This document shows, piece after piece, positions 4,101 through 26,602 of a stretch of 64,000 nucleotides of DNA (its first letter is position 1; every line of letters starts with the position of its first letter). The position numbers were made by a program, and so were the translations under genes. The stretch spans positions 1 to 64,000 of the forward strand of contig CALDYP010000011.1 in the NCBI GenBank assembly GCA_937944445.1, in the 5' to 3' direction. This stretch comes from an uncultured Anaerolineae bacterium (lineage in GTDB: Bacteria; Chloroflexota; Anaerolineae; Aggregatilineales; Phototrophicaceae). The notes under the pieces are model-generated. The model was not told the DNA's origin, did no database searches, and saw nothing but the letters and a program-made list of their open reading frames with translations.

Positions 4101-6300
4101 ATGTAATCTCTCTAGAGGCCGTATGATAGATGAAACGCGCTCGCCAAAAGTACGTTGTGCCAGCAGAAGGGGCGAGGTCTTGATTCAACGGGATGGGATT
4201 CTCGTCATACAAACCAAGCGCGATCAGCGTCGCATTCGGAGGGAACTGCCGCGAGAGGCTGACCTGTATCTCCACGTCAACGCGCGAACTGGCGAGGGAC
4301 AACAAGGGCGATTCAACTAGAAACGACGGCGCTTGATTGAAGTGTGCTCTGTCGGCTGGGGTGTTGATGCGCGGCGCGGAGAGCGCCCCGTCAACGACAA
4401 AAAAGGCGCGCGGTGGCGTGTAACCACTCGGCTGATTGGGCAGGCGAACGCGCCAGAAGATGACTGCGCCGGGGCGCAGCACATCCCCCATGAGAGGATA
4501 CAAGGCCTCAACGTCGAAGCGGGTGATGGTGTAGTGATTGGCCTCAAGCGTATGGGTGATGCCTCCATCAAAGAAAGGGTTGCTGGCAAGGTCAAGGGAG
4601 TAGGTTGTCATGCCTATCACTGGCGTCCAGTCCAACCGCGGTCGGATGCCAGCAGGGAAGCTTAGCAGCAGCGCATCCGCTGCCGGGGATAGTCTAAAGT
4701 CTACATAGCTGTCACGTATGACGGCGCTGCCGACGTTGCCCGCTGCGTCAATCGGGTAAACTGCCCAAAAGAACTCACCTTGCAGCGGGGCAACATAGTT
4801 AGGATGGCCGAGCATGCCTGAGCCAGTGAAAGACAACCCGGAGATGATTCGGCTCTCGTAGCCTTCAACGGGGATGCTCAGATCGGGCAGATAGCTCACG
4901 AGCAAACGATAACGGACTGCGCCCGTTGCCGATGACCATGAGAAGGTAGGCCGCGTGTTCTGGCTCACCACTGGCGCAGCAGCCGGGAGCCGAAGGGTGA
5001 CCGCAGGCGGAGGCGTTCGGTCAATTTGAATGGTTTGGGGCGTGCTCCACGGGCTGCTGCCAGCCGCGTTGAGCGCTCTCACGCGCCAGTAGTAACGCCC
5101 ATCTGGGATGAGATTAGGCGCGATCGTGTTCAGGTCGAGCGCGCTGTCAGGCTGCATTGGCATCGGCTCAACCTCGGAGATGGTTTGAAAGGTGGGGTGG
5201 CTCGATAGTTCAAACAGGTATGATGCTGCGCTGCTGCCAGTGGGCATTGTCCAGTTGAAGATGACATTGCCCACCCATAAGGGCATCTCGATGTTGCCAC
5301 CGATCAACGTGCCGTTGGGTGGGTGGGTCAGGATGGGGGCAGGTGGCGCAGAGGCGGACAAGGGCTGCGCTGCACTGCTGACAATGGGGGGCAAAGTGGT
5401 GGGGGTTTCGACTGGGAGGATAGCAGTAGAGGGCGGCGCTGGCTCAACGGGTAGAGCGGAAGATGCTGGGCTGCCCACCGCGAGCTGCACGCGGCGAATG
5501 CGCAGCAGCCCGCCGTCAGCAGTTAGTTTTATCGCTTCAGCTTGGGCAAATTGCAGGTCGCACGGCTGGATAAGAGTGATGCCGCCAATTGAAGCGCTAA
5601 CGCTGTGCTCTGCCCACACAACGCGCAGCGTGTGCCAGCCCGTGAGTGAGACCGTCGCTTCTTCCAACGCGCAGCCCGCGAGAGACAGAATTTGCGGCGT
5701 CAACTTGACAAGTGGATGGTTCTCGTCGGTTTGGATCGTCACGCTTCCTGTTTGTAACCAGAGGTCAACCTCCACGTAGAACGGGTAGGGAAGCGCCGCA
5801 AACGACAGCATGCCACCGTTCAGGTCTGCTTGCAAGGCATGGCCGCTCTCGGTTTGTACCACCGTCCATAAGCCTGTGAACTGCCAATCGACAGGAATCA
5901 TGCCCCCCTCAAACGTCGTTTCAAAGCTGGTTGGCGCGATTGATGTTGGCGTGGGTGAGTTAGCTGCGGTGGCTGTTGGCTCGGCTGGTGGGGTAGGTTC
6001 CGTTGGGTTATCTGTGGGCGGGGGGCTTGTATCAGTGGGTGTAGGGCTGGGCGGCGGCGTTTCTGTGGGGGAAATTTCGGTGGGCGTTGTGTCGTAGGTG
6101 GCGGATGGTTCAGGGGGCGCATCTGTCGCGTCTGGGACATGAGGGATGGCTGTGGGCGTGGGTAGCTCTGTGGCCGTCTCCAACGCAGGGATTTCTGTTG
6201 TGACTGCTGCGTCCTCGGTCGGAGTTTTTGGCGGATGCGGTTCTTGGGCGATGACACGGACGATTAGCAGACAAAGAAGTGCTAAAACAACCCCTTTCAT
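1123..6300 (-). CDS. Giant secreted fibronectin III/Ig-like repeat protein
   Basis: 1725 residues. A signal peptide spans residues 1-19 (hydrophobic core, probable cut after VIA). A Pro/Thr-rich stalk follows to about residue 125. Residues about 125-265 look like a jelly-roll (concanavalin-like) domain. The rest is about a dozen degenerate fibronectin III/Ig-like modules, recognised by the recurrent strand YFWRVRAL or a close variant near the end of each unit and by IDRTPPPA linkers. No C-terminal membrane anchor or LPXTG motif is seen, so it is probably released or held non-covalently. The start is supported by AGGGGG a few bases upstream of the ATG. It sits between an ExoA-like glycosyltransferase and a glycoside hydrolase, suggesting a surface or polysaccharide-binding role. 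Function unknown; adhesin or carbohydrate-binding scaffold is inference. Confidence 0.85.
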   Translation of the reverse strand: MKGVVLALLCLLIVRVIAQEPHPPKTPTEDAAVTTEIPALETATELPTPTAIPHVPDATDAPPEPSATYDTTPTEISPTETPPPSPTPTDTSPPPTDNPTEPTPPAEPTATAANSPTPTSIAPTSFETTFEGGMIPVDWQFTGLWTVVQTESGHALQADLNGGMLSFAALPYPFYVEVDLWLQTGSVTIQTDENHPLVKLTPQILSLAGCALEEATVSLTGWHTLRVVWAEHSVSASIGGITLIQPCDLQFAQAEAIKLTADGGLLRIRRVQLAVGSPASSALPVEPAPPSTAILPVETPTTLPPIVSSAAQPLSASAPPAPILTHPPNGTLIGGNIEMPLWVGNVIFNWTMPTGSSAASYLFELSSHPTFQTISEVEPMPMQPDSALDLNTIAPNLIPDGRYYWRVRALNAAGSSPWSTPQTIQIDRTPPPAVTLRLPAAAPVVSQNTRPTFSWSSATGAVRYRLLVSYLPDLSIPVEGYESRIISGLSFTGSGMLGHPNYVAPLQGEFFWAVYPIDAAGNVGSAVIRDSYVDFRLSPAADALLLSFPAGIRPRLDWTPVIGMTTYSLDLASNPFFDGGITHTLEANHYTITRFDVEALYPLMGDVLRPGAVIFWRVRLPNQPSGYTPPRAFFVVDGALSAPRINTPADRAHFNQAPSFLVESPLLSLASSRVDVEIQVSLSRQFPPNATLIALGLYDENPIPLNQDLAPSAGTTYFWRARFIYHTASREITSPFSAPRSFVYDTQPPVFVPIPTVRAQNLRPALSFPAATGAVRYTVSQLQGSTPVVISPTPLTVPRFTPTADLQIGQNVLTVRAFDAAGNSADATFTVLVDIAQSPTPSASVRSPVTFRWANQPSHTQYTFQIATDPTFTELHPSSTTINGSAHTVTLQPGVFYWRVFPTGAALSDDLPSRALYVSASPLSRATLGLIASDNTLNITEHAAGDVLLSCQGAQPEHAPMLHTAPYQVELAANAAFTQNVQRVPVVCDGLPHPQLPANELVSRPFVRVLTTYHDGLTLISPAQRITVDLTPPSMPVPLQPSTALRITTPLPTLRWQASAGVRPRDGYRVEFFEPTHADPFRVVSASAPELVTSRLPASTFAPLPQSPIEWRVVAVDQAGNESASPRSAFTVHLGSSPAHDAYLSTTLPLFIFERYPWHNGTYQLIIASDSTFSTLHGQHEIACSSNPCRFTLPSGSALSRGADYYWVVWPSAMPFDSAAVGAAAHFYVLAEADLISAPTLELVEGDPDQLLNAAQASDGLTFAWQAPAGLVSVQVVGYELQVSRSITFHPLTASHQTTDAAPSAALPVTWPDGKYFWRVRALLSRGGHSPYSAVGTFTLDRTPPAAPMITFPLGGTLATTQPRLTWRPSPSATAYEGTLDDVPFTTVNTHYTAALTQGQHALTLRAVDQAGNVSAASQTTWAINLSQLPRHRAVRQQTSAALPIEFAWAVPTGYSGSYTLYLDTDGDFTTVDSVDGQPLTPITTTANRVQLPHLPEGIYRWWVGVGDEPLPSSLTPFTFAQTRAGVPAPLLNAVAGDDRLNAAEYPDAAFTWNAPLGAAWQPVSYTFELSNSSTFSRVLHRTTSSTPAFSASALAVVDGTYFWRVRALYPYDFERVSPPRTILIDRAGPPSAPQLISPLAHWVFTGAQPSFSWSSPPTSAYFRLDILTEDGASLVRSYIVTSPRLSVPTSAPLPAGTYLWRVQAYDNVGNTSPLSATRRVRITS

Positions 6301-6390
6301 ACCGTACCCCCTGTTGCTCTAAAGGTATGAACTTGTGCATCAAATGAGCGCTGAAAAGCTGTCTGGACGATGAACCGCGCTCGCCGTGCG

Positions 6391-7380
6391 TCATAATTTA
6401 ACGCCGTCGAGCAATTCAGGCAACAACAGTTCACGCCAGAAACCAAGCCCCCATGCGAGGTGAATCGTGAGGAATACGATAGGCAGCTGCGGCAGCAAAT
6501 CCCAGCCGTTCTGGCTGGCTTGACGCACAGAAAAGGCCAAGTTAGCGACAAGGTATGCCGCGATGCCTGCCAGATACAGGACAGCCAACGCGGGGATGAA
6601 CAGGCTGACAATCGGCCCCAGAATTAACCCTGCGACGAACAGCGGCGCGACGATCTGACGCGGGCGCAGTGAGCGCGGATGCAAGCGCAAAGTCTTCACT
6701 TTGGAGCGACCATAGCGGTAGTACTGTTTCCACAAAGCAGGCAGCGTCTGCCGACCGTAGTAAAGCGATTGAAGCGTGGGCGAAAAGTAGATGCGACCGC
6801 CAGCTTGCCGAATGCGCACGTTGAGTTCGTAATCTTCGTTGGCGCGCATGGGTTTGTAGCCGCCTAACGCGGTGATCACCTTGCGCGGCCATGCACCCAT
6901 GTAGACAGTGTCCGTGTACTGCGCGCGACTGCTGACGTGAAAAGCGCTTGGGACGGCAAATGGGCTGCGCCCCGCGGCAGCAATCGCGCGCCCCATGCGC
7001 GTTTCACCTACGGGGTTCATCGGCCCGCCCACGTTGGCTGCGCTCGTCTCTCGTAGCAGGCGGACACACTCGCTAACGTAGTTCGGGGCGATGATCGTGT
7101 GCCCATCCACGCGGATGAGGTACTCGCCCTGTGCGTGTTCAATGAGGCGGTTTAGCCCGCTCGCTTGGATGATGTCTGGGTTGTCGATCACGCGGACGCG
7201 GCCTGCTGTGTCAATGCGCTGGATGATCGCCACGGTATCATCGTCACTGCGCCCATCTGCGATGAGGATTTCCATTTGGTCAGGTGGGTAATCCTGCGCG
7301 AGGATGGCCCCTAAGCTGCGCTCAATGAAGGCAGCTTCATTGCGCACGGGCATCATGATGGTGACAAATGGCAGTGTCAT
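6391..7380 (-). CDS. Family 2 glycosyltransferase, ExoA-like, membrane anchored
   Basis: The GT-A fold begins with FVTIMMPVRNEAAFIERSL, followed by the DGRSDD nucleotide-binding region and VDGH in place of the DXD. This is the pattern of the succinoglycan ExoA branch of family GT2. The C-terminal 100 residues hold two to three hydrophobic segments (around LFVAGLILGPIVSLFIPALA and LPIVFLTIHLAWGLGF), so the enzyme is membrane bound, with its active site probably on the cytoplasmic face. An in-frame upstream extension exists to 7431, but GGAGAG five bases before the ATG at 7380 fixes the start there. It follows cobU by about 60 bp and precedes the giant repeat protein, for which it may make or decorate a surface polysaccharide. 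The sugar donor cannot be told. Confidence 0.85.
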   Translation of the reverse strand: MTLPFVTIMMPVRNEAAFIERSLGAILAQDYPPDQMEILIADGRSDDDTVAIIQRIDTAGRVRVIDNPDIIQASGLNRLIEHAQGEYLIRVDGHTIIAPNYVSECVRLLRETSAANVGGPMNPVGETRMGRAIAAAGRSPFAVPSAFHVSSRAQYTDTVYMGAWPRKVITALGGYKPMRANEDYELNVRIRQAGGRIYFSPTLQSLYYGRQTLPALWKQYYRYGRSKVKTLRLHPRSLRPRQIVAPLFVAGLILGPIVSLFIPALAVLYLAGIAAYLVANLAFSVRQASQNGWDLLPQLPIVFLTIHLAWGLGFWRELLLPELLDGVKL

Positions 7381-19727: not shown

Positions 19728-22595
19728 ATGCCGTCAGCGCTGGAAACACTCGTCAAAGTCTTGAAGCAAGAGCGTGAAAACGGATGCAACAATCAAACGA
19801 TCATCGGTGGCCTCGGAGCCTACTCAGAGCAGTGGTCGGCAGACGTGCGCAGCGAGGCGCGCCGCGCTGAGCACCTTATTTTGGCCGAGGAACTGCCCGC
19901 CATCATGCGAGCGTATGACAGCACCGACGACAAACGCGAGCGCATCAAACGCATCAACTACATGTTGGATCGCATCACGGGGCGCGCGCCTGTGCCGTCG
20001 CAGTTTCGGCAGCAGCTAGAGGCGTTGAAGGCGCAGTTCAGCGCGCAGAATGCCACCCCTACGAAAGAGGCACGCGAGAAGCGTGAGCCGGGCGAAGAGC
20101 GCTCCCCACGCGAGGAGCCGCGACGCGAGCGCCCCCCACGCGGCGAGCTGCGCCCGCAGCGGGGGGGCGAACGCTCTGCCGTAGAGCCGCCGCGCACGCC
20201 GACCCCTGATCAAGCTCCCCGCCCGGAGCGCCCCGCACGGGGTGAGAAATCGCGCCCAGAGCGCGGCACGAAATCCGCACGCGAGGGCGACCGGCGCACA
20301 GCGCCTGCGCGCACTGAGCCGCAGCAGCCCCGCATGACGGACAGCCCGCGCGAGGTGTTTGAATTCGAATACAAGTTCATCAACCCGCAAGGGTCTGACC
20401 TTAAGCCCCTGCCGCGCATGGAGCGCCCCCCACGCCAAGCGCGCCCCGATTTGAGCCTTGAGGAGGCCATGCAGCGGCTTCAGCAGCTTCGCCAGCCGGT
20501 AACTGTCATCAAGGGGGTGGGGCAGAAGATCGCCGACACGCTGGCCCCGCTCGGCATTCGGACGGTCGAAAACCTGATCTACTATCTGCCGCGGCGCTAC
20601 GATGACTACACGCGGCTCAACACGATCAATCACCTAGAACTTGACCTCGTGAACACAGTCGTCGGGAAGGTAACGAAACCGCACCTGCGCGTGAGCAGCA
20701 GCGGTCGGCGCGACTTTGCGCTGACGCTCGAAGATGGCACAGGCCGCATGGACATCACCTTCTTCGGCGGCCACTACCTGCGCAACGTGTTACGAGAGGG
20801 GATGCAGATTGTCGTCAGCGGCAAGGTGACGCTCTTCGGCAATCGCTTTCAGATGACCAACCCAGAGTGGGAGCAGCTCGAAAAAGAAAACCTCCATACG
20901 GTTGGAATTGTGCCAGTGTATCGGCTCAAGGAGGGGATCAAGCCGCGCAGCTTCCGCCGAATGATGAAGCAAGCCGTTGACACGTGGTCAACGTTTGTGC
21001 CGGATTATATGCCAGTTGGAACGCTAGAGCGGGCTGATCTGGCTGATCTAGGCTGGACGATTCGCAATCTGCACTTTCCTGAGGGGTGGGATCACCTCGA
21101 ACACGCGCGGCGGCGGCGGGTCTTCGACGAGCTGCTGCTGCTGCAATTGGCGATCCTCGGCAATCGGCGTGACTGGCAGGCCGTGCCGGGCATCCCGCTG
21201 AAAGTGGAGGCGGGCTTCCTCGACAGCTTCTTGGCGGCTGCCTTCCCGTATGAGATGACCAGCGCTCAGATGCGCGCCATTCACGACATCCTCGACGATG
21301 TGCAGCGCCCAGTGCCGATGAACCGATTGGTGCAAGGCGACGTAGGCGCGGGCAAAACAGCGGTGGCGATCACCGCGATGGCGCTGGCCGTCCACAACGG
21401 GATGCAGGCTGCGTTGATGGCCCCGACGAGCATCCTCGCGGAGCAGCACTATCGCGGGGTGAGCAGCGCCTTTGCCAACTTCCCCGGCGAGCGCCCCCCA
21501 ACTGTGCGGCTGCTGACGGGCGCGCTGAGTGCCAGCGAACGCGAAGCGGTCTACCGTGGGCTGGCTGATGGGCAGATTGATGTGGTGGTGGGCACGCACG
21601 CGCTGATTCAAGAGGGCGTTGAGTTCAAGCAGCTGGCCGTTGCGGTGGTCGATGAGCAGCACCGCTTTGGCGTGGAGCAGCGCGCACGGCTGCGCGGCAA
21701 AGGCACGCACCCGCATTTGCTCGTGATGACGGCTACGCCGATCCCGCGTACGCTGGCGCTCACGATGTACGCTGACCTCGATTTGAGCGTGATCGACGAG
21801 AAGCCCAAAGGTCGCCGCCCGATCAAGACCCAGATCAACTTGCCATCGGAGCGCGAGCGCGTCTATGACTTTATCGAGTCGCAGCTTAATCAGGGACGGC
21901 AGGCGTTCATCATTCACCCGTTGGTGGAGGCCAGCGAGGACGAAACATCTGAGGCGCGCAGCGCGGTTGAAGCGTATGAAGAGCTGAAGCGCGTGTTCTT
22001 CCATCACCGCGTCTGTTTGCTGCACGGGCGCATGTCCCCGCGCGAGAAAGACGAGATCATGGCGGCGTTCAGTCGGCATGAGTACGACATTATGGTGACG
22101 ACGAGCGTCGCTGAGGTGGGGGTGGACATCCCGAATGCGAGCGTCATCATGATCGAGAGCGCGAATCGCTTCGGTCTGGCGCAGCTCCATCAGTTTCGTG
22201 GGCGCGTGGGGCGCGGCGAGCATGAGTCGTTCTGCATCTTGATGGTGGAGTCGGGCATTTTTGAGCCTTATGATTTGGCGGACAACGATCAAGGCGCTGA
22301 ACGCGAGTGGACGCCTGCTCAGCAGCGCTTGCTCAAGATGCGCGAAACGGACGATGGCTTTGCGCTGGCCGAGTTGGATTGGCGGCTGCGCGGGGCGGGT
22401 GATCTGTTGGGGGCGCGGCAGAGCGGGGTGTCATCCTTGCAGTTGACCGAGCTGATGATGCCCGATCTGGTGGCGCTGGCGCAGCAAGAGGCCCGCACCA
22501 TCTACGAGCAAGACCCGAACCTAGAACGGCCAGAGCATCAACTGCTGCGCCAACTCGTGCTCATGCAGACGCAAGACGTAGGCGATGTATCCTGA
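19728..22595 (+). CDS. recG: ATP-dependent DNA helicase RecG with long N-terminal extension
   Basis: 955 residues; RecG is usually 680-820. The wedge/OB domain starts near residue 255 (VIKGVGQKIADTLAPLGI and YYLPRRYDDYT). Helicase motifs are complete: I QGDVGAGKTAVA, Ia MAPTSILAEQHY, II VDEQHRFGV, III MTATPIPRT, V EVGVDIPNAS, VI HQFRGRVGRG. Residues 1-105 form a helical domain of unknown kind, and about 106-205 are a low-complexity Arg/Glu/Pro-rich linker. RecG remodels stalled forks and Holliday junctions. It begins 6 bp after the DegV gene. Confidence 0.95.
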   Translation: MPSALETLVKVLKQERENGCNNQTIIGGLGAYSEQWSADVRSEARRAEHLILAEELPAIMRAYDSTDDKRERIKRINYMLDRITGRAPVPSQFRQQLEALKAQFSAQNATPTKEAREKREPGEERSPREEPRRERPPRGELRPQRGGERSAVEPPRTPTPDQAPRPERPARGEKSRPERGTKSAREGDRRTAPARTEPQQPRMTDSPREVFEFEYKFINPQGSDLKPLPRMERPPRQARPDLSLEEAMQRLQQLRQPVTVIKGVGQKIADTLAPLGIRTVENLIYYLPRRYDDYTRLNTINHLELDLVNTVVGKVTKPHLRVSSSGRRDFALTLEDGTGRMDITFFGGHYLRNVLREGMQIVVSGKVTLFGNRFQMTNPEWEQLEKENLHTVGIVPVYRLKEGIKPRSFRRMMKQAVDTWSTFVPDYMPVGTLERADLADLGWTIRNLHFPEGWDHLEHARRRRVFDELLLLQLAILGNRRDWQAVPGIPLKVEAGFLDSFLAAAFPYEMTSAQMRAIHDILDDVQRPVPMNRLVQGDVGAGKTAVAITAMALAVHNGMQAALMAPTSILAEQHYRGVSSAFANFPGERPPTVRLLTGALSASEREAVYRGLADGQIDVVVGTHALIQEGVEFKQLAVAVVDEQHRFGVEQRARLRGKGTHPHLLVMTATPIPRTLALTMYADLDLSVIDEKPKGRRPIKTQINLPSERERVYDFIESQLNQGRQAFIIHPLVEASEDETSEARSAVEAYEELKRVFFHHRVCLLHGRMSPREKDEIMAAFSRHEYDIMVTTSVAEVGVDIPNASVIMIESANRFGLAQLHQFRGRVGRGEHESFCILMVESGIFEPYDLADNDQGAEREWTPAQQRLLKMRETDDGFALAELDWRLRGAGDLLGARQSGVSSLQLTELMMPDLVALAQQEARTIYEQDPNLERPEHQLLRQLVLMQTQDVGDVS

Positions 22596-22637
22596 AAACG
22601 GCGTTGTGAAATCAAACGCGCTGCTGGGGATATTTGG

Positions 22638-22667
22638 TTGGCGTGTTTGTGATATTCACTATATAGT
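22638..22667 (+). promoter_or_regulatory. Possible coaD promoter
   Basis: TTGGCG (22638-22643), 18 bp, TATAGT (22662-22667), in a locally AT-rich 100-bp gap and about 25 bp before the GGGAG site of coaD. A -10 match of 5 of 6 and a -35 match of 4 of 6. Confidence 0.45.
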
Positions 22668-22697
22668 TATTGATAGCTCTACTGGTTGGGAGATCAC

Positions 22698-23195
22698 ATG
22701 GGGCGTATTGCGGTGTATCCAGCGTCGCTGGATCCGATTCACTTTGGGCATATCGACATCGCGCTGCGAGCATCCAAGATCTTCGATCAGGTGATTGTTG
22801 CGATCTACGCGAACCCCAAGAAGAACGTGCTGTTCCCGCTTGAACAGCGCGTCGCGTTGGCGCAGCAGTGCTTCACCGAGGAAAAGCGGATCACCGTTGT
22901 TTCATACAGCGGGTTGACTGTTAATTTTGCTCGGGAGGTCGGAGCGCTGGCGCTGATCCGTGGGCTGCGCGTCTTTGGCGATTTTGAGTTTGAGTTCCGC
23001 ATGGGGATGGCGAACAAGAAACTCGCGCCGGACGTGGAGACGGTGGCGATTTTGGCGGATGAGAAGTATATGTACATCAGCAGCAGCACCGTTCGCGAAG
23101 TGGGCGAGCTTGGCGGGGACGTCTCGAAGATGGTTCCGCCGCATGTGGCGCAAGCGATCATCGAACGCTACGAGTTTTTGAGACAATCTTCTTAG
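22698..23195 (+). CDS. coaD: Phosphopantetheine adenylyltransferase
   Basis: About 165 residues, normal for CoaD. It has the nucleotidyltransferase motif DPIHFGHIDIA (HXGH) near the N-terminus, GLRVFGDFEFEFRMGMANK and the C-terminal YMYISSSTVRE (ISSS/TXXR). It makes dephospho-CoA from phosphopantetheine and ATP. A TTG at 22686 is in frame, but GGGAG five bases before the ATG at 22698 decides the start. The usual GSFDP is ASLDP here, a mild change outside the catalytic histidines. Confidence 0.96.
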   Translation: MGRIAVYPASLDPIHFGHIDIALRASKIFDQVIVAIYANPKKNVLFPLEQRVALAQQCFTEEKRITVVSYSGLTVNFAREVGALALIRGLRVFGDFEFEFRMGMANKKLAPDVETVAILADEKYMYISSSTVREVGELGGDVSKMVPPHVAQAIIERYEFLRQSS

Positions 23196-23218
23196 CAGGA
23201 TGTGCGGGAGGGATAAAC

Positions 23219-23782
23219 GTGGACATTCAACATCTGGTTGACCGGCTTGAAGATCTGATCGACGATGGTCGTCATATTTTCGGCACGAAATATACGCTGA
23301 TCGACGAGGAGCGCGCGCTGGAAATTATCGACCAGATGCGCATCTCAATCCCTGATGAGATTGAGAAAGCCTCACGGATCATCGCGCAGCGTGACCGCGT
23401 GTTGGCAGAAGCCCATGAGGAAGCTGCGCGCATCGTGCAGCAGCATCGTGACCGCGCTGAGCAGCGCATCAATGAGGATGAAATCGTCAAAGCTGCACAG
23501 GAACGCGCGAAAGCTATCCGTGAGACGGCGCTGCAAGAGGCCAACCGCATCACCGCCGAAGCTGACCAATACGCGCTGCAAGTGTTGACGCGGCTGGAGC
23601 AACTGCTAGTGAGCAACATTACGCAAGTGCGCAACGGCATCAGCGTCCTCAACGAGCAGCAGCAGGACGCTGGGGTAGTGCGTTCAGAGCCGTATCAACC
23701 GGTGCATATTCCACGTCCCGTTGACTCGCATGAGCAGCTCGTCGATGCCGACATGGGCGATAACAAGCGGTATTCTTCGTAG
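23219..23782 (+). CDS. Coiled-coil protein of unknown function
   Basis: 187 residues, GTG start preceded by a GGAGGG-like site. Residues about 45-140 are a long charged helix (EIEKASRIIAQRDRVLAEAH and onward), with heptad-like spacing and similarity in composition to F-type ATPase subunit b or DivIVA-like proteins. No membrane segment is seen. It lies between coaD and comEC. In actinobacteria a DivIVA-like septation protein lies in the coaD-rnc region, so a cell-division or envelope role is possible (inference only). It should not be taken as a true ATP synthase subunit. Confidence 0.75.
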   Translation: MDIQHLVDRLEDLIDDGRHIFGTKYTLIDEERALEIIDQMRISIPDEIEKASRIIAQRDRVLAEAHEEAARIVQQHRDRAEQRINEDEIVKAAQERAKAIRETALQEANRITAEADQYALQVLTRLEQLLVSNITQVRNGISVLNEQQQDAGVVRSEPYQPVHIPRPVDSHEQLVDADMGDNKRYSS

Positions 23783-23800: not shown

Positions 23801-26119
23801 ATGCGGCTGGGTATCATCGCGCTGACATGGCTGAGCGGCATGGTCGCCGCGGCCCAGTGGCCAGCGCTCACAGCGCGCTTTTGGGTCGGCATCGCGGTCG
23901 CTTCAGCTGTCACTGCGTGGCTGCTGCGGCAGCATGCGACGAGACGGACTGTCGCCTTGTTGGTGATGGTTGGCTGTTTGGGTGGGCTGCGGCTCACTTT
24001 CTCTCTCACTGCTTCCTCTCTCGTTGAGTTTCACGGTCGTTCTGTTGGGCTGACGGGTGTCGTCAGCGCGCCCCCGGACTTGCGCGATGATCGCGCGCTG
24101 CTGCGCGTTCAAGCCCTGCATGTCTTTGACGGGGCGCTGACTCATCCAGTGAGCGGCGCGGCGCTTGTCACTGTGCCGCGAGAGGACGCCGCCAGCTATG
24201 GGGATGAGGTGTCGGTGGCTGGGGTGCTGCTGCCGCCGGGCGAGTTTGACAGCTTCTCTTATACGGACTACCTAGCGCGGCAGGGCGTTCACAGCGTCAT
24301 GCGTCAAGGGACGCTCACGCTGGTACAGGCGCGGCCATACGACGACGTCACGTCTGTGTTGATCGCGCTGCGCGAGGCGGCGCGCGTCATCATTCTGTCG
24401 GCGCTGCCACAGCCGCAAAGCGGCCTGCTCGTCGGGATTTTGCTCGGCAGTGAGCGCGACATCAGTGCCCCCGTGGACGAAGCGTTCCGCCTCACAGGGC
24501 TTTCGCACATTATCGCCATCAGCGGCTTCAACATGGCCGTGTTGAGCGGGGCGGTGCTGGCGCTGCTGCGACCCCTCAACGAGCGTCGCCCGCTGCTAGC
24601 AGTGCTGATAACGGTCGGCGTGCTTGGGGTGTACACGGTGTTCGTGGGGGCGGGGGCATCGGTCTTGCGGGCGGCGGTCATGTGCGCGTTGCTTCTGGGC
24701 GCGCCGCTCGTGCGGCGCAAGGCCTACTTGCCGGCGTCTTTGGCGGCGGCAGCGATCTTCCTAACGCTGCTCAACCCGTTCGCGCTGTGGGATGTGGGCT
24801 TTCAGCTGAGCTTTGCCGCAGTGTTGGGCTTGGCGTTGTGGCTGCCGCCCCTCCAGCGTTGGAGTGAACGCTGGGCAGGCGAACGCCTGCATTGGCCGCC
24901 TGCCCAGCAGCTCGCCCGCCTGCTAAGCGATCTGCTGTTGGTGACGCTCGTCGCACAGGCGGCGACGCTGCCGCTGCTCATGCTGCACTTTCAGCAGGTG
25001 TCGGGGGTGTCGCTGGTGGTCAACCTGTTGGTGCTGCCTGTGCAGGCGGCTGTGTTGGTGGTGGGGCTGCCGGCGGTGCTGCTGAGCGCTCTGCTGCCTG
25101 CGGCGGGGGAGGTGCTGTTCGCGTTGGTGTATGTGCTGCTGGCGTGGACGACAGGGATCGTTCGCGCGTTTGCGGCGCTGCCTATGGCTGCTCAGACGGT
25201 TTACCTCAGCCCAGTATGGGTGGCGCTCTTCTACGGTGGCATGATAGGAGGCCACATGCTCAGTCATTTTGATCCGTCATGGTGGGCGCGCCTGCGTCGG
25301 ATGCCGCTGCGGCGGGTGGCTGCGGGGCTGGCGGTCTGCTTTCTAGGGCTGATAGGCTTGGTGCTGGCGCAGCGGCCTGACGGGCGGCTGCACGTGTACT
25401 GGCTGGACGCTGGCCGCAGCAGCGCGGTGCTGATTCAAACGCCGCAGGGCGCGCAGGTCTTGATCGACGGTGGACGCTTCCCCACGCGCTTGATGACCGC
25501 GCTCGGCGAGGTAATGCCCTACAATGATCGTCAGATCGACATGCTCATCTTGACGCAGCCCGACGACGCAGACAACGCCGCGCTGCTAGAGGCGCTGCGC
25601 TTCTATGACGTCGGCGTTGTCGTCAGCACCGGCCAACCCAGCGCGAGCGACACACAAGCCGCCTTGTGGGAGCGGCTGCGCGACGTGCCGCAAGCGGTCG
25701 TCTCGCGCGGGTCGCGGATTATGCTAAGTGATGGGCTGTCTTTCGACGTGCTGCACCCGCCTGAGCGGCCCAACTTGGCAACGTCGCTGGCCGAGAGCGC
25801 GCTCGTGCTGCGCTTAACTTACGGCGAGCGCAGCGTGCTGTTTGCTGGGAACACACACTACCCACTGTCTGATCAACTTTTGTACAGCGACGTCCTGCAC
25901 TTGGCTGCGCCGCGGCGCGCGCACCAGTCTGAGCTGTGGTATGTCGAGGCTGCGCAGCCGAGCGTGATCGTCATGCAGCTTGACCGCGGCGGCAGCAGCC
26001 GCTACCTGCTGGATGAGCTGGCGCTGCAATTCCCGCTGCCGCCCGTGCTGCGCACAGATCGAGATGGGACGATCCACCTCTTCAGCGATGGCCTGCGCTG
26101 GTGGGTGCAGCCGCGCTAG
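23801..26119 (+). CDS. comEC: ComEC/Rec2-family DNA uptake channel with a degenerate beta-lactamase-like domain
   Basis: 772 residues. An N-terminal two-helix region and OB-like part (DUF4131) cover about 1-165. The Competence domain (about 200-480) carries GLSHIIAISGFNMAVLSGAV and many membrane segments. The C-terminal metallo-beta-lactamase-like domain begins at about 525 (VYWLDAGRSSAVLIQ, VLIDGG). In place of the metal-binding HXXXDH it has LTQPDDADNA; in place of TGD it has AGN; and HHG reads APR. It should move single-stranded DNA into the cell, but the nuclease domain looks dead. The last 4 bp overlap the convergent membrane-protein gene. Confidence 0.9.
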   Translation: MRLGIIALTWLSGMVAAAQWPALTARFWVGIAVASAVTAWLLRQHATRRTVALLVMVGCLGGLRLTFSLTASSLVEFHGRSVGLTGVVSAPPDLRDDRALLRVQALHVFDGALTHPVSGAALVTVPREDAASYGDEVSVAGVLLPPGEFDSFSYTDYLARQGVHSVMRQGTLTLVQARPYDDVTSVLIALREAARVIILSALPQPQSGLLVGILLGSERDISAPVDEAFRLTGLSHIIAISGFNMAVLSGAVLALLRPLNERRPLLAVLITVGVLGVYTVFVGAGASVLRAAVMCALLLGAPLVRRKAYLPASLAAAAIFLTLLNPFALWDVGFQLSFAAVLGLALWLPPLQRWSERWAGERLHWPPAQQLARLLSDLLLVTLVAQAATLPLLMLHFQQVSGVSLVVNLLVLPVQAAVLVVGLPAVLLSALLPAAGEVLFALVYVLLAWTTGIVRAFAALPMAAQTVYLSPVWVALFYGGMIGGHMLSHFDPSWWARLRRMPLRRVAAGLAVCFLGLIGLVLAQRPDGRLHVYWLDAGRSSAVLIQTPQGAQVLIDGGRFPTRLMTALGEVMPYNDRQIDMLILTQPDDADNAALLEALRFYDVGVVVSTGQPSASDTQAALWERLRDVPQAVVSRGSRIMLSDGLSFDVLHPPERPNLATSLAESALVLRLTYGERSVLFAGNTHYPLSDQLLYSDVLHLAAPRRAHQSELWYVEAAQPSVIVMQLDRGGSSRYLLDELALQFPLPPVLRTDRDGTIHLFSDGLRWWVQPR

Positions 26120-26562
26120 AAAATCTTGGCGTAGACCGCGTTCGGCAGGAAGAACGCCCCGATGACGTACATGCCGGCTACGATCCCAGCGGAGAGGCCC
26201 AACGGCAGCGCGAGGCCGCCCTTGCGACCGTGTTTGCGCGTCATTGCGCCGGCGATCATCGGGAACAGACACATGATGATGTGCATCATGAACGTGAGGA
26301 AGCCGCGGTTGCTCAGCAGGTTTTCGCCGCCGATTTCGAAACGGTTCAAGAACGGGACGGTGTTCCCGCCAGCCCCGCGCACAAGGTCAAGGACGCAGCA
26401 GAACATCGCCACGTAAATCAGGTAGGGCGGCACGACGTTCTTCTCAGGGATAGCTGCCAGCGTCAGGATACACAAAATCAACACCGTGTAGACCATCAGA
26501 TCCGACAGCGAGTCGGGTCGCAGAACAGTAACTAGATCTTGTCCAAGTTTTGCTAAATCCAT
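26116..26562 (-). CDS. Small polytopic membrane protein of unknown function
   Basis: About 148 residues with four hydrophobic segments (around LMVYTVLILCILTLAAI, YLIYVAMFCCVLDLV, LTFMMHIIMCLFPMIAG and LPLGLSAGIVAGMYVIGAFF). A basic loop TRKHGRKGG lies between segments three and four. I do not recognise the family. An in-frame TTG exists at 26577, but GGAGG about nine bases before the ATG at 26562 gives the better start. It overlaps the comEC stop by 4 bp, tail to tail. Confidence 0.75.
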   Translation of the reverse strand: MDLAKLGQDLVTVLRPDSLSDLMVYTVLILCILTLAAIPEKNVVPPYLIYVAMFCCVLDLVRGAGGNTVPFLNRFEIGGENLLSNRGFLTFMMHIIMCLFPMIAGAMTRKHGRKGGLALPLGLSAGIVAGMYVIGAFFLPNAVYAKIF

Positions 26563-26602
26563 GAGGGTTTCCTCCAACGGATGAGTACAATCTATGTGTT
26601 TG

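Follow-up and report, generated by a model that had tools for sequence, protein, structure and literature searches.

Loss of the metal site from the C-terminal domain of ComEC across an order of Anaerolineae: a probable pseudo-nuclease at the DNA-uptake channel

ComEC/Rec2 proteins commonly, though not universally, carry an OB fold (DUF4131) and a C-terminal beta-lactamase-like (MBL) fold. The C-terminal domain (CTD) of Moorella ComEC binds two Mn2+ ions and cuts DNA (PMC12455585, PMC8579336). In Moorella glycerini, H598, D600, D602, H603, D700, H725 and S728 have been mutated as metal ligands or DNA-binding residues; the H598A, D602A, H603A and D700A variants are virtually inactive in vitro, while D600A retains about a fifth of the activity (PMC12455585). 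With the exception of S728, the mutations with reduced activity made Legionella non-transformable, and an essential loop (loop 2) of ComEC has also been described in this organism (PMC12455585). Removal of these metal ligands cripples or abolishes transformation in Bacillus and Legionella. The ComEC of Streptococcus pneumoniae has a predicted inactive MBL CTD in which two of the seven metal positions are kept (PMC5031224) and which has been suggested as a possible DNA guide (PMC8579336), and ComECs without the MBL domain are common (PMC6299819). The fate of the second strand in bacteria lacking the ComEC nuclease has been posed as an open question (PMC8579336).

Both the predicted inactive CTD and the domain-less form are thus already known. 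A search of the open-access literature yielded no report of degenerate ComECs from Chloroflexota, and, as far as that literature shows, the new elements in the present study are fixation of the loss throughout an order, undiminished constraint on the domain, a derived signature, the lack of EndA and parallel losses within one class. The DNA analysed here, referred to as the window, is a stretch of 64,000 nucleotides from an uncultured Anaerolineae bacterium whose genome assembly comprises 3.2 Mb in 92 contigs and is 81% complete, with comEC on contig C11.

The ComEC gene and its C-terminal domain

The gene and its domains were located as follows.

23801..26119, + strand: comEC, DNA-uptake channel protein of 772 aa, a single unbroken ORF (Pfam Competence and DUF4131)
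23879..24301, + strand: OB-fold domain (DUF4131), residues 27-167 (Pfam E 2.5e-18)
24437..25246, + strand: Competence (channel) domain PF03772, residues 213-482 (Pfam E 5.6e-54)
25370..26116, + strand: C-terminal MBL-fold domain without the catalytic metal site, residues about 524-772 (profile, AlphaFold2 and 9ic4 match)

The channel domain, OB fold and C-terminal MBL fold of the ComEC/Rec2 proteins are therefore all present in the window protein. A Pfam scan of the 772 residues gave no match to Lactamase_B; a profile built from intact ComEC MBL domains of the same class recognises the CTD with E 5.3e-53, and by sequence the CTD matches the Moorella ComEC structures 9ic4 (E 2.2e-14) and 30bt (E 3.5e-14). 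The AlphaFold2 model of the CTD has a pLDDT of 91.5 and a pTM of 0.91 (mean pLDDT 87.1 for the full-length protein), and its best structural match is the crystal structure 9ic4, with Z 28.4 and an rmsd of 2.5 over 241 residues. According to this model the CTD still adopts the MBL fold despite the loss of its ligands. Domain and fold are thus the same as in the CTD of Moorella glycerini / M. thermoacetica ComEC, at 26% identity; unlike that Mn2+-dependent nuclease, however, the window protein retains only one of the six catalytic positions. The first-pass annotation of this DNA had described a metal-less MBL domain in which fold and channel persist, a description supported by Pfam, the alignment, the AlphaFold2 model and the match to 9ic4.

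In order to describe the site, the window residues were read against columns anchored on intact ComECs of the class.

25406..25423, + strand: motif I, DAGRSS against DVGQGD in intact relatives (alignment)
25553..25573, + strand: motif II, TQPDDAD against THPDxDH in intact relatives, with H598Q, D602A and H603D, D600 being kept (alignments)
25844..25852, + strand: motif IV, AGN against TGD in intact relatives, the bridging D700 being replaced by N (alignment)
25907..25915, + strand: motif V, APR against HHG in intact relatives, with H725A and H726P (alignment)
25982..26008, + strand: strand-guiding loop region, DRGGSSRYL against GADNRFGHP in intact relatives and DxANRxGDP in the family (alignment)

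Substitutions affect five of the six catalytic positions (H598Q, D602A, H603D, D700N and H725A) and D600 alone is kept; in the window numbering, Q586, D588, A590, D591, N684, A703 and P704 stand at H598, D600, D602, H603, D700, H725 and H726, respectively. Where an Mn2+-dependent MBL nuclease has H598, D602, H603, D700 and H725, the window thus reads Q, A, D, N and A, and nuclease activity of this CTD is predicted to be absent on the basis of the published alanine mutants. Further losses are the QGD of DVGQGD (which reads GRSS), S728, replaced by R, and the NRFGHP loop, where GGSSRYLL is found. The earlier claim that three ComEC metal motifs were lost together is borne out at motifs II, IV and V; the accompanying reading of HXXXDH as QPDDADN was right as to the loss but not as to the exact string, which is QPDDAD, with D591 opposite H603 and N592 one residue past.

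An alignment shift was rejected as the cause of the ligand loss, because the sites are flanked by conserved LIDGG, LHP and TDRDGTIHLFSDG; three alignments put the same residues at the same places, no metal ligand was found at a shifted position and the observation stands. The only conceivable shifted substitute is H707, four residues downstream of motif V, which would be insufficient because five positions are missing. Assembly error or a pseudogene was likewise rejected, the ORF being unbroken in the window and the loss being order-wide.

Spread of the loss and constraint on the domain

Relatives of comEC occur in 92 of the 98 genomes of the window's family and in 62 of its 63 high-quality ones. 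We aligned 134 ComECs from the class, nearly all of them full-length, the named relatives in the comparison being Anaerolineae bins, several labelled Aggregatilineales. The site is degenerate in all 66 aligned ComECs of the family, each of which keeps 0-3 of the six catalytic positions: no sequence has H at position 603, one has D at 602 and two have H at 725, while D600, D700 and H726 survive in most. At motif V most family members keep xHG, and the window, with APR, is eroded further. In the other families of the window's order, 14 of 14 ComECs are degenerate and keep 0-1 of the six positions. Confinement of the loss to this assembly was also checked; the loss instead extends to all 66 sequences of the family and all 14 from the other families of the order. 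Elsewhere in the class, all ligands are retained in many families, and several further losses occur. The intact members used for comparison (n=28, other families) keep 5-6 of the six positions, a uniformity that exists by construction, as they were chosen by their motifs.

When the motif loss was mapped on a tree of the class built on OB and channel columns alone, with the CTD left out, the window's order (49 rows) formed a single clade with an SH-aLRT of 98 in which every row is degenerate. The label intact or degenerate changes six times over the sampled class, at least three of these changes being forced by well-supported branches; we read them as repeated losses because the intact site is common to Bacillus, Moorella and Legionella. 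As part of the explanation preferred below, the CTD probably turned into a pseudo-nuclease in the ancestor of the window's order.

The analysis of pairwise identity gives no sign of relaxation family-wide, since the ratios of CTD to channel are alike: the mean identity in the window's family is 0.494 for the CTD and 0.484 for the channel (ratio 1.034), against 0.474 and 0.476 in the intact members (ratio 1.017). Judged in this way, the degenerate CTD of the family is constrained as strongly as a working one. Residues newly common to the family CTDs are H539, S540 and N541 (GHSN), A594, Q612, Q690, Q700, D728, D735 and H759, and the signature motifs are GHSN, [QH]PDExD, LPxHG and NRxGDP; DGG, LHP, R671 and the C-terminal RTD..GTIH..TDG are retained. 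The shared new residues point to a new role rather than to a dead stretch. Relative to its channel, the window CTD is the third lowest of 66 in conservation, 2.3 SD below the trend, and H539, N541, D684, Q690, Q700 and D735 of the family are missing from it. This extra erosion suggests a recent relaxation in its lineage, and a second round of CTD erosion may have begun in the window's own species. Within window 25349-26116 we also observed a 7-residue deletion before motif V together with the loss of the NRxGDP loop, the CTD being eroded beyond the family.

Competence genes and candidate nucleases

ComEA is present in 59 and DprA in all of the 61 family genomes tested, and the window genome matches both, its DprA lying below the curated cut-off; the retention of these two proteins indicates that the uptake machinery is retained in the family. 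Most family (f1) genomes carry two DprA-like genes, one above and one near the curated cut-off, and the window genome shows only the weaker, possibly through incompleteness.

The ComEC of S. pneumoniae resembles that of the window in keeping the MBL fold with the metal ligands mostly replaced. Unlike the window's family, however, S. pneumoniae has EndA for strand cutting: the EndA-type PF01223 was found in one of the 98 family genomes, leaving 97 without it, and neither in the window genome (81% complete) nor in its genus-mate. Only the degenerate CTD of that division of labour is therefore found here, without the EndA-type nuclease. The window case differs further in spanning a whole order, with a derived signature common to a family. 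The ComEC of Helicobacter pylori also works without a nuclease of its own and without EndA, but it has no CTD at all, whereas the window's family retains the CTD under constraint.

A free-standing intact ComEC-type MBL occurs in one of the 98 family genomes (locus L068), in a bin whose contamination is about 7%; nearly all candidates were scored in the family profile search, and in the class-wide search six candidates per genome were scored, so that copy numbers there are lower bounds. In the window genome no second ComEC-type MBL was found, the five other profile matches having E 0.0018 or worse. Four of these five are other MBL-fold proteins with an intact HxHxDH, and some of the four resemble RNase J and RNase Z, a likeness of motif and length alone. 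Among the conserved neighbours of the family loci there is no nuclease adjoining comEC. Upstream of comEC in the window (19728-23782) lie recG, coaD and a 187-aa gene without Pfam match, which stand beside comEC in 39, 34 and 26 of 59 family loci, respectively. SNase was considered as a replacement cutter. It is common in the family, with genes in 44 of 61 genomes, but not universal, and a search of the window's genome and of its single genus-mate found none. The first-pass suggestion of a nuclease step handed to another protein thus finds no support in the window's lineage, whose own genome is 81% complete: the searches for EndA, a free ComEC-type MBL and a linked nuclease were negative, and the sequences offer no specific candidate in the family.

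A real handover of the nuclease from ComEC does seem to exist in two other families of the class, f24 and f34, to judge from their gene content. There, a separate ORF with an intact ComEC-type MBL and one apparent membrane helix is found alongside a ComEC whose degenerate CTD reads TYPP in place of GHP. The separate ORF lies near tsaD in several of these genomes; in one it shares the strand of comEC and follows about 1 kb further downstream.

L268:3001-3873 and 4928-6805: f34/f24 locus
L267:2797-3807: f34/f24 locus
L269:1998-2981: f34/f24 locus
L270:2974-3924: f34/f24 locus
L271:2926-3801: f34/f24 locus
L266:2983-4008: f34/f24 locus

The class therefore forms a natural series, which runs from intact ComEC through a CTD that is degenerate yet constrained and has no visible replacement to a degenerate CTD accompanied by a split-off intact nuclease gene; this makes the second-strand question testable by comparing neighbours.

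A proposed non-catalytic role and its alternatives

We propose, with moderate confidence, that the ComEC of the order is an uptake channel whose CTD has become a pseudo-nuclease and now works non-catalytically as a wedge or guide. DNA uptake itself being assumed, the CTD would be a passive strand guide or wedge at the channel mouth, where it would help the OB fold to separate the strands of the arriving duplex and direct one of them into the channel, the other strand being displaced or cut by a nuclease neither EndA-like nor ComEC-type MBL. An unrelated secreted nuclease may do this cutting. Members of the order probably import one DNA strand without relying on the nuclease of ComEC itself. 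The guide role agrees with what has been suggested for the inactive CTD of S. pneumoniae (PMC8579336) and draws on one Legionella study of a loop, of which the family has a remodelled form (NRxGDP) and the window none; from the motif pattern we infer that window 25982..26008 corresponds to the essential loop 2 (PMC12455585). Of the two options offered by the first-pass annotation, the likelier would be that the domain now only binds DNA. It is a possible but doubtful extension that the whole order imports DNA by means of a CTD remade as a non-catalytic strand separator with its own conserved surface, needing neither ComEC- nor EndA-type cutting.

Cutting may instead have been handed to another nuclease, with the CTD as a leftover scaffold, an arrangement known with EndA in S. 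pneumoniae. The f24/f34 pairing of an intact, apparently membrane-anchored ComEC-type MBL with a degenerate ComEC, and the SNase genes of the family, speak for it; it is nevertheless unlikely, given the near absence of EndA-type PF01223 from the family, the restriction of the free-standing ComEC-type MBL to one contaminated bin, the failure to find SNase in the window's genome or genus-mate and the lack of any nuclease linked to comEC. The below-trend conservation of the window CTD and its missing signature residues would fit ComECs no longer serving transformation, the gene being kept for nutrient DNA uptake or slowly decaying. We consider this still less probable, as the family-wide conservation of the CTD equals that of intact ComECs, comEC is present in nearly all high-quality family genomes and the family retains ComEA and DprA.

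A metal site remodelled around different ligands, such as D at 603 with D600, D700 and H726, in a domain that is still a nuclease would accord with the D for H603 in 45 of the 66 family members, and with D700 in 57 and H726 in 54; D602, the general base, is however gone in 65 and H725 in 64, and in the window D600 and the D591 of motif II are all that remain, N684 and P704 occupying the other positions, which renders this reading very improbable. Given the surviving D600, D700 and H726, weak single-metal binding might conceivably persist in most family members. The pseudo-nuclease acting as wedge or guide is thus the reading that we prefer.

On the opposite strand of the window, a 153-aa ORF without Pfam match (26116-26577, - strand) runs convergently to comEC, directly adjoining its stop codon, and resembles a small membrane protein. 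In genome G298 (family f48; L275:407-2807), two overlapping ORFs of 474 and 335 aa make up ComEC, a split probably due to a frameshift.
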